From NCBI GenBank assembly GCA_025935655.1, contig JAICUV010000003.1, positions 1 through 33,908 on the forward strand: a DNA stretch of 33,908 bases, in the 5' to 3' direction. This DNA is from Chloroflexota bacterium (GTDB lineage Bacteria; Chloroflexota; Limnocylindria; Limnocylindrales; CSP1-4). Made by a program: the position numbers and the translations under genes. Position 1 is the first letter of the stretch. Each line of letters opens with the position of its first letter. Under the pieces are notes generated by a model that saw only the letters and a list, made by a program, of their open reading frames with translations, ran no database searches and was not told the DNA's origin. Positions 19,137 to 21,737 of this stretch are shown in pieces.

Positions 19137-20501
19137 TCAGCCGGACGGGACCAGCCGGCCCGGGCCCGGCGTGCCGAGAATCTCGCGGGTGGTGGCGAGG
19201 CCCCAGGCGTCAAGGTCCGCGAGCCGGTCGGACGAGACCCGCAGGCCGCCGTGGCGGGCGATGTGCGCCGCCCACGCGTCGCGGCGCTCGACCGCGGGGC
19301 GGACGATCAGGCAGTCGGGGTCGTTCGTCCAGAACCGGCCGTGCATGAACGCCCGGCCGGCGCTCGTGAGCACGGCGCTCCGGGCGCCGGGCTCGGAGAG
19401 GTCGCCCGAGGACGGCTCCCAGTGGGGGGCCGTGTCCGGGCCGACGCGCATCGCGTCGACGAGGCCGACGGTCGGCAGCACCGGCGCACCGCAGCCGAGG
19501 AGGTACGCGTCGCCGATCGAGGCGCGCACGAGCTCCATGCCGCGGCGGTACGCCTCGAGCGGCGGCACCGGCTCGTACCGCCGGCCTGGGACCGCGGCCG
19601 ACCAGACGAAGTCGGCCTTGACATAGTCGATGCCCAGCGACCGCAGCCCGCCCAGCGCCGACGCGAGCGACGCCGCCGCGGCCGGATGGGTCGTGTCGAG
19701 CGCGTACAGGTCCTGGTCCCAGTTGCGCCCGACGACGGCCGCGCCGCGGTCGTCCGCGACCAGCCATTCGGGATGGGCGGCGGCGGTCGCGCTCCGGGCG
19801 CCGACGAGGAACGGGGCGAGCCAGGCGCCCGCTCGGCGGCCCGTCGCCCGGATCCGCCCGACGAGCGCCGCGAAATCGCCGAAGGCGGGCGACCAGGCCG
19901 CCCAGTCGCCGATGCCCGCCTGCCAGCCGTCGTCGACCTGGACGACCTCGACCGGCAGCCCGAGGTCGTCCATCGCCCGGACGTTCTCGTCGACGTCGGC
20001 AGCCGTGACCGCGGTGAAGTAGTGGTACCAGCTGCACCAGCCCACCGGGGGGCGACGGATCGGCGGCACGCCCGCCCGCGCGGCGAACCCGTCGGCCCAG
20101 CGGGCGAGCGCGCCCTCGAGGCCGCCTGGGCCGTTGTCGGTGTAGTGCTCGACGGGGCCGTCGGCGAAGACGGCGAGGAGGCCGTCCTCGAACAGTGCGG
20201 CGATCGACGGCACGCCGAGGCGGGCCCCGGATGCTGCGAACACGTGGGTGGCCGCGTCCGCGGCCGGGCGCACCGCGAGCAGCCCCTCGCCTTGGAACCC
20301 TCCCGCGACCCAGCCGCTGCGGGGGCGGGCGTTGAGGCGGTGCAGCCGCTCGTCCCTCGGGCGGATCGGCGTATCGCCGAGCCCGTACGTCGTCGTCGGG
20401 GTCCAGGACTGCCAGCCGTGCTCGAACACCCGAGCGCTCCGGGCGTCGACCGCCAGTGTCGCGACGGGCTCGAAGCCGGCGGGCATGCGGGGAGGTCTCA
20501 C
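19137..20501 (-). CDS. Glycoside hydrolase family 36 (alpha-galactosidase-like)
   Basis: VGWCSWYHYFTAVTAADVDEN, VEVVQVDDGWQAGIGDW, GIDYVKADFVWSA (nucleophile region), MRVGPDTAPHW. Start uncertain (GTG 20501 or ATG 20486); no signal peptide. Confidence 0.87.
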   Translation of the reverse strand: MRPPRMPAGFEPVATLAVDARSARVFEHGWQSWTPTTTYGLGDTPIRPRDERLHRLNARPRSGWVAGGFQGEGLLAVRPAADAATHVFAASGARLGVPSIAALFEDGLLAVFADGPVEHYTDNGPGGLEGALARWADGFAARAGVPPIRRPPVGWCSWYHYFTAVTAADVDENVRAMDDLGLPVEVVQVDDGWQAGIGDWAAWSPAFGDFAALVGRIRATGRRAGAWLAPFLVGARSATAAAHPEWLVADDRGAAVVGRNWDQDLYALDTTHPAAAASLASALGGLRSLGIDYVKADFVWSAAVPGRRYEPVPPLEAYRRGMELVRASIGDAYLLGCGAPVLPTVGLVDAMRVGPDTAPHWEPSSGDLSEPGARSAVLTSAGRAFMHGRFWTNDPDCLIVRPAVERRDAWAAHIARHGGLRVSSDRLADLDAWGLATTREILGTPGPGRLVPSG

Positions 20502-20639
20502 CAGGCCATCGTGGGTCGACTCGCCGCGGGCGGCAAGCGCAGCCGCGCCGGCAGGGGATCGGCCGGGTGCGCGTCCGGCGCCCACATGCTCCCTTTCGCG
20601 TGGCGCGGGACCAACGCGGAAAACGCACAGGGTCCCGTC

Positions 20640-20666
20640 CCAACTGCGCCACCCAGTGTGGGAAAC
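20640..20666 (-). repeat. Left copy of 27-bp inverted repeat
   Basis: CCAACTGCGCCACCCAGTGTGGGAAAC; its reverse complement matches 21195-21221 at 24 of 27 positions, with the outer 14 bp identical. Confidence 0.85.
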
Positions 20667-20675
20667 CCGCTGACC

Positions 20676-21092
20676 TCAGTCGCAGACAGGGCGATCGGAC
20701 GCGATGCGAAGTCCCAGGCCCGTCATGTCATCGCCCCCGATCTGGCCGAACGTCGAGACCGCGCCTGGCGCCTTCGGGTGGCGGGCGATCACCATGCACA
20801 CGTCACCCCTCATTGCGGGAGCAGTCGCCTGCCAGCACGTCGAGCTATCGGCCCAGTCGGGCAGCGGTCCGGGGCAGGCGCGCGCCTCAACGACAATCCT
20901 CCCGCCGCTTGCCTCGAGCACGCCCTTCCAGTTCCGGGCCAGGTTGTTGACGAAGAGCTTGGCGACGCCCTTGCAGTCGTCAGCCTGCACCCACGAGCAG
21001 GTCGCGGTCCAACCATCGAAATGCACGGTCGCCTCAGGCATGCACGCCCCGACCAAGAGGAGTGCGGTCGCTGCTACCGCGAGACCCTTCAT
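20676..21092 (-). CDS. Small lipoprotein, function unknown
   Basis: MKGLAVAATALLLVGACMPEATVHFDGWTATCSWVQADDCKGVAKLFVNN...; lipobox LVGAC; an alternative start extends to 21107. Confidence 0.6.
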   Translation of the reverse strand: MKGLAVAATALLLVGACMPEATVHFDGWTATCSWVQADDCKGVAKLFVNNLARNWKGVLEASGGRIVVEARACPGPLPDWADSSTCWQATAPAMRGDVCMVIARHPKAPGAVSTFGQIGGDDMTGLGLRIASDRPVCD

Positions 21093-21194
21093 CCGGGTAT
21101 CCCCCACTGCTTCATTGCTCGATCTTCGCCGTTTCTCGAACGCTTTACACCTGGTCTCCGGTTGCCGTTAGGACCGGGAGTCCGCAACCGGGAG

Positions 21195-21221
21195 GTTTCA
21201 CACACCCGGTGGCGCAGTTGG
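21195..21221 (+). repeat. Right copy of 27-bp inverted repeat
   Basis: GTTTCACACACCCGGTGGCGCAGTTGG; inverted counterpart of 20640-20666. Confidence 0.85.
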
Positions 21222-21235
21222 GCCACGTCGCAGGC

Positions 21236-21265
21236 TTGACAGGTGACTGATTGGTCACGTATTGT
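21236..21265 (+). promoter_or_regulatory. Sigma70-type promoter with operator-like palindrome in the spacer
   Basis: TTGACA (21236-21241), 18 bp, TATTGT (21260-21265); spacer contains GTGAC-tgattg-GTCAC (21243-21258). Confidence 0.65.
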
Positions 21266-21299: not shown

Positions 21300-21737
21300 A
21301 TGGCGAGCAGCACGAACACCACGAGGGCGACCGACGGCTTCACGGCGGAGGAGAAGGCAGCCGTCAAGGAACGCGCACGGGAGCTCAAGGCGGCGAGCTC
21401 GAAGGCGGACGGCGAGCGCGACCTGCGGCAGAAGATCGCCGAGATGCCGGAGCCGGACAAGTCGATGGCCGAGCGTGTGGACGCGGTCGTGATGGCCGCC
21501 GCCCCGGAGCTCGAGCGCAAGACGTACTACGGGATGCCCGCCTACGCGAAGGACGGCAAGACGCTGTGCTTCTTCAAGCCGAAGTCCAAGTTCAAGGTCC
21601 GCTACGCGACCTTCGAGCTCCAGCCGGACGCGATGGTCGACGACGGCTCGATGTGGCCGGTCGCGTTCGCGCTGACCGAGCTGACCGAGGCGAACGAGGC
21701 TCGGATCACGGAGCTCGTGAAGCGGGCGACGCGCTAG
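21300..21737 (+). CDS. DUF1801 / YdhG-like protein
   Basis: APELERKTYYGMPAYAKDGKTLCFFKPKSKFKVRYATFEL resembles the DUF1801/iron-chaperone-like fold; charged N-terminal extension. Confidence 0.75.
   Translation: MASSTNTTRATDGFTAEEKAAVKERARELKAASSKADGERDLRQKIAEMPEPDKSMAERVDAVVMAAAPELERKTYYGMPAYAKDGKTLCFFKPKSKFKVRYATFELQPDAMVDDGSMWPVAFALTELTEANEARITELVKRATR

Follow-up and report, generated by a model that had tools for sequence, protein, structure and literature searches.

Inverted 29-nt repeats around a lipoprotein gene in a Chloroflexota genome, putative ends of a rare transposase-less gene cassette

Introduction

What kind of element is a small lipoprotein gene enclosed by two almost identical inverted repeats in the genome of an uncultivated Chloroflexota bacterium? 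The gene is found in a stretch of 33,908 nucleotides (contig JAICUV010000003.1 of assembly GCA_025935655.1), hereafter the window, for which a first-pass annotation made from the sequence alone had proposed either a MITE-like or recombinase-mobilised cassette or a pair of regulatory sites. The mobile elements of uncultivated Chloroflexota are poorly documented and, if cassettes of this type move, single small genes could spread without a transposase of their own and land beside promoters, hardly visible to standard annotation of insertion sequences.

Results

An inverted repeat encloses a single lipoprotein gene

The two 27-mers at positions 20640-20666 and 21195-21221 match in inverse orientation at 24 of 27 positions and their outer 14 bp (GGTGGCGCAGTTGG) are identical, just as first described. 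Ungapped extension lengthens both arms slightly, to 29 nt (Table 1). We use the name S for this 29-nt inverted-repeat arm and the label G000 for the genome of the window. At their full length the two arms match at 26/29 positions (90% complementary), leave 526 nt between them, and constitute the sole inverted pair of at least 26/29 in the window for arms up to ~800 bp apart. This pair is far above chance: in 120 first-order Markov shuffles, the best inverted pair matched at 24/29 positions and none reached 25/29.

Table 1. Features of the S-bounded locus in the window (G000).
Feature	Position	Strand	Details
Left-flank alpha-galactosidase-like glycosidase gene (melibiase domain)	19137..20585	-	PF02065
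Hairpin directly outside left S	20605..20638	.	GGGACC/GGTCCC stem; z -3.2, + strand
S, left copy	20639..20667	-	GGTTTCCCACACTGGGTGGCGCAGTTGGG on minus strand; 40.8 bits, model R1
Cargo lipoprotein gene	20676..21092	-	138 aa from ATG 21092; alternative start GTG 21107
Hairpin directly inside right S	21160..21189	.	GGTTGC/GCAACC, inner GGAC/GTCC; z -2.7, - strand
S, right copy	21194..21222	+	GGTTTCACACACCCGGTGGCGCAGTTGGG; 46.6 bits, model R1
DUF1801 promoter	21236..21265	+	TTGACA 21236-21241, operator-like GTGAC-N6-GTCAC 21243-21258, TATTGT 21260-21265
Right-flank DUF1801 gene	21300..21737	+	PF08818, 27.7 bits vs cut-off 27.2

Between the arms there is indeed, as the first-pass annotation had it, a single lipoprotein ORF, located on the minus strand and with a lipobox (...LLLVGAC). 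Its product, a small predicted lipoprotein, matched no family in Pfam and NCBIfam. The left S lies ~9 bp past the stop codon of this gene, and the right S is upstream of two divergent genes, that of the lipoprotein and that of the DUF1801 protein. The hairpins reported beside both repeats are real but moderate, folding better than shuffled sequences on the better strand, and the reported absence of a transposase held for the nine neighbouring proteins scanned, with neither a transposase nor a recombinase among them. The D-arm-like strings GTGGCGCAGTTGG and TGGCGCAGTTGG made S a candidate tRNA fragment or tRNA-derived attachment site, which we rejected since ARAGORN predicted no tRNA and no Rfam family matched.

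S is rare and restricted to one family

The further copies of the repeat that the first-pass annotation had proposed to seek are absent from its own draft genome (3.46 Mb in 407 contigs), where S has no copy beyond the window pair and the exact 14-bp core occurs only at these two places. The first hint that S recurs came from a DNA search of the family. Eight strong copies are present across 177 genomes of the class and belong to six species of one family (6/107 family genomes): the window pair, a pair in G021:C1, and single copies in G006, G037, G042, and G048. They score 40-47 bits, followed by a gap down to <21 bits, and pattern and model searches agree. Model matches <21 bits were set aside, except for G026:C87, a ninth, full-length but more decayed copy (29.5 on the position matrix), and G010:C64, a doubtful further copy. 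A scan of ~85,000 species genomes retrieved S only from Chloroflexota bins of this group, besides four unrelated matches (Kiritimatiellae, Myxococcales, Paracoccaceae, and Nanoarchaeota) that we consider due to chance, as they have nothing in common beyond the pattern. A phage or plasmid origin of S was also discarded, with no exact match in viral contigs, while plasmids and phages gave nothing beyond chance matches of 18-19 nt.

Outside G000 and G021, each genome with S shows a single copy. We read the surroundings of S in G042 and G026 and no partner was present there; G042 lacks the second end. The search was hampered in G006 by gaps, in G037 by another apparent insertion, behind which the second end would be placed, and in G048 by the contig end, the second end being off the contig. 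S adjoins another ORF in G006, broken by the assembly gaps, and the ~17 nt just inside S are common to this genome and to the DUF2975 cassettes described below, around different genes. In each complete pair (G000 and G021), one S end has a central TG and the other CC, with the sides swapped relative to the cargo; these TG/CC versions of S, seen in copies of G000, G021, G042, and G048, hint at exchange or inversion between ends.

The same ends enclose a different cargo in a related genome

In G021, a second inverted S pair, ~930 bp across, encloses the genes of a DUF2975 membrane protein and of a Cro/C1-type HTH protein. The same termini around other cargo, one of the checks proposed by the first-pass annotation, are therefore found in one related genome and, partly, in four more. 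The outer flanks of the G021 pair consist of a glgX-type glycogen-debranching gene and a VanZ-like gene, unlike those of the window, and its right S falls between two convergent gene ends. S occupies the equivalent place 5' of the DUF2975 operon in G037, G042, and G048, but what lies outside S is not the same in G042 as in G048 and G037. In G037:C29 (L039 ~600-690), a sequence resembling the edge of another insertion sequence interrupts the DUF2975 cassette at its 3' end.

Both types of cargo also exist without S. Homologues of the lipoprotein are known in five other species, and no S is adjacent to those of G006, G060, G037, and G095 within the loci fetched. Nineteen family genomes contain the DUF2975 operon, its surroundings varying among them; S accompanies only 4/19 of these operons, and those four are scattered in the gene tree. 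The DUF2975 gene of G021 shares about 91-94% DNA identity with most copies of another genus (g12), from S-bearing and other species alike, approximately the within-genus level, whereas identity between the glgX-type proteins of that species pair is 53-62%, a rough yardstick only that may compare paralogues. Given this high identity across genera, the DUF2975 operon has probably spread horizontally between them, and the small, scattered fraction of operons with S implies that S is not needed for this spread. Its varied surroundings and its identity across genera suggest horizontal mobility, both where S is present and where it is absent. Phage and defence libraries yielded nothing clear on either cargo, and a literature search on DUF2975 and horizontal spread yielded nothing useful.

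The DUF2975 and HTH operon (G021 L081:7259-7950; L108-L127) also has a very conserved upstream box, GCCGCCGGATGCC...CTATTGACA...TCGATAG. Several of these operons adjoin an apparent toxin-antitoxin-like small gene with an HTH gene, or a fragment of its last codons (...DAEAVTKHKKRLDLTPA) (G041 L109:817-1370; 3' flanks in G042 and G050); the neighbour is on the upstream side in one species and on the downstream side in the rest.

TTGACA lies 15 nt outside S at three loci

In the window, the TTGACA of the DUF1801 promoter starts after exactly 15 nt beyond the GTTG of the right S, a feature absent from the first-pass annotation. TTGACA is found exactly 15 nt outside S at three loci (the right S of G000, the left S of G021, and the S of G026), and an S half followed by N15 and TTGACA, with at most one mismatch, has no fourth occurrence in the 177 class genomes; other matches need two mismatches and appear at about the control rate. 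The TTGACA of G026, which has no good -10 box after it, is a candidate promoter. The remaining S copies have no TTGACA at the 15-nt offset, and at the DUF2975 loci S is 35-36 nt upstream of an inner TTGACA. The glgX promoter is recognisable without S in G101, G094, and G088, and a DUF1801-type promoter, equally without S, precedes ArsR/SRPBCC-like genes in G007, G032, G081, and G082. Since these related promoters in relatives do not have S, the promoters predate S, which is a late addition. The DUF1801 promoter itself looks autoregulated (TTGACA, GTGAC-N6-GTCAC), with no ArsR gene between it and the DUF1801 gene.

Discussion

A mobile cassette and its rivals

Two accounts compete: insertion of the S ends at a defined distance from promoters, and acquisition of a regulatory site at a working position. 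Insertion better accounts for the pairing, for the difference in cargo, and for the subterminal bases in common; regulation explains the 15-nt spacing more simply. We lean, with confidence just above even, towards the S pair being the end repeats of a rare, low-copy, transposase-less mobile gene cassette. S would then mark, as a terminal inverted repeat, each end of a small non-autonomous element, and a transposase or recombinase encoded elsewhere and acting in trans would bind both S ends and move the segment that they bound, passenger gene included, as in a mobile insertion cassette. Both complete cassettes would have landed immediately 5' of a host promoter, leaving 15 nt between its -35 box and the nearer S end and the cargo oriented away from that promoter, and target choice may favour sites beside promoters.

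Support for this mobile cassette comes from the paired repeat, its recurrence around different cargo, the absence of S at related promoters of relatives, and the fixed 15-nt spacing, to which its patchy distribution, the bases shared just inside S around different genes, and the cross-genus identity of the DUF2975 gene can be added. The cassette interpretation of the first-pass annotation is partly supported, through the G021 pair; its MITE-like version, in the usual multicopy sense, is not, with only two arms in the genome of the window. Against mobility count the one or two S copies per genome, most of them solitary, the existence of both cargo types without S, and a TTGACA spacing that could reflect a regulatory role. 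In agreement with the target-site duplication reported as not evident at the outset, no direct repeat is present at the outer edges in G000, or in G021. No transposase-bearing element with S ends was detected in the genome of the window, the 107 family genomes, the 177 class genomes, or the collection scans. The empty sites that the first-pass annotation had proposed to look for in sister strains are not found in species-level relatives, as the gene order flanking the window and G021 pairs is not conserved in other species. On these three grounds, and because both cargoes exist without S, mobility is something that we infer.

The main rival to the mobile cassette, also raised in the first-pass annotation, is a regulatory one, which we hold to be rather unlikely although a serious contender. 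S would be a regulator-binding site upstream of promoters, acting on the outward promoter and perhaps on the inward cargo gene, and its second copy would be a duplicate site. Such a role would suit the three loci with TTGACA at exactly 15 nt, an arrangement seen nowhere else in the 177 genomes, as well as the 35-36-nt distance at the DUF2975 loci, but it fits poorly with the S copies that have no TTGACA at that offset and with the right S of G021, whose position between convergent gene ends is one where no promoter is expected. Recognisably the same promoters do without S in relatives, one or two sites per genome would be few, and a length of 29 nt, the high conservation, and the shared subterminal sequence are all unexpected for an operator.

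S might also be an intergenic repeat that became dispersed, or what is left of an older element. The pairs would then result from separate single insertions, and the enclosed genes would never have moved as a unit with S. The solitary state of most S copies, the frequency of the cargo genes without S, and the DUF2975 operons that move with or without it, those bearing S being scattered in the gene tree, are consistent with this proposal; given the rarity of S, two independent inverted pairs, each tightly around one gene or operon, would be an improbable outcome of it, and we judge it unlikely. Very improbable, in our opinion, is an invertible-DNA site at which a recombinase flips the enclosed gene. 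The TG and CC end versions do stand on opposite sides of the cargo in G000 and G021, as if exchanged, but the scanned neighbours include no recombinase, the upstream region of the lipoprotein gene would flip along with it, making inversion devoid of evident effect, and two pairs are known in all.

If the mobile cassette is accepted, a more specific formulation would be that transposase-free cassettes with inverted ends of 29 nt form a family confined to this lineage, inserted 15 nt upstream of -35 boxes without target duplication, and that genes for small membrane proteins or lipoproteins come to stand back to back with active promoters in this way. We offer it tentatively and regard it as doubtful; the hypothesis of targeted insertion is directly testable, since the spacing from S to the -35 box is fixed. 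To our knowledge, no element has been described that inserts at a set distance from -35 boxes.

Comparison with known systems

Integron attC sites have direct orientation, occur once per cassette, and contain paired core boxes. Integron cassettes resemble the S-bounded segments in associating one small gene with a recombination-like repeat, but we rejected this assignment because the S copies stand on both sides of the gene in inverted orientation and, by eye, they have no consistent complementary 5' core box (R''/R'). MITEs and TIMEs are short, transposase-free elements with inverted ends of about 29-38 bp, and TIMEs make 5-6 bp target duplications (PMC4133298). S cassettes are likewise short, transposase-free, and bounded by inverted ends. 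However, MITEs are multicopy and normally gene-free, whereas S forms one pair per genome, with a gene, and no TIME-like duplication was seen; a multicopy MITE is ruled out by the presence of only two S arms in G000 and one or two per genome elsewhere.

Insertion sequences of the IS1202 family known as "dif site hunters" have imperfect ends of 24-26 bp and insert 5 bp from XerC sites; they encode a transposase of 441-457 aa and generate 5-bp duplications (PMC10132070). Their fixed 5-bp distance from a host site parallels the 15-nt spacing between S and TTGACA, although S cassettes differ from them in the transposase, the 5-bp duplications, and the XerC targets. Mobile insertion cassettes (MICs) are transposase-less derivatives of insertion sequences, with terminal inverted repeats around a passenger gene (PMC3129680, PMC4133298). 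The S cassettes of G000 and G021 share with them the inverted repeats at both ends, the passenger gene or genes, the absence of a transposase, and the combination of the same ends with different cargo (the lipoprotein in G000, DUF2975 and HTH in G021). They depart from MICs in having one copy per genome, often with the partner end missing, and in coming without a target duplication and without a parent insertion sequence bearing the same ends. For these last two reasons we do not file them as MICs, which are nonetheless the known elements to which S cassettes are anatomically closest.
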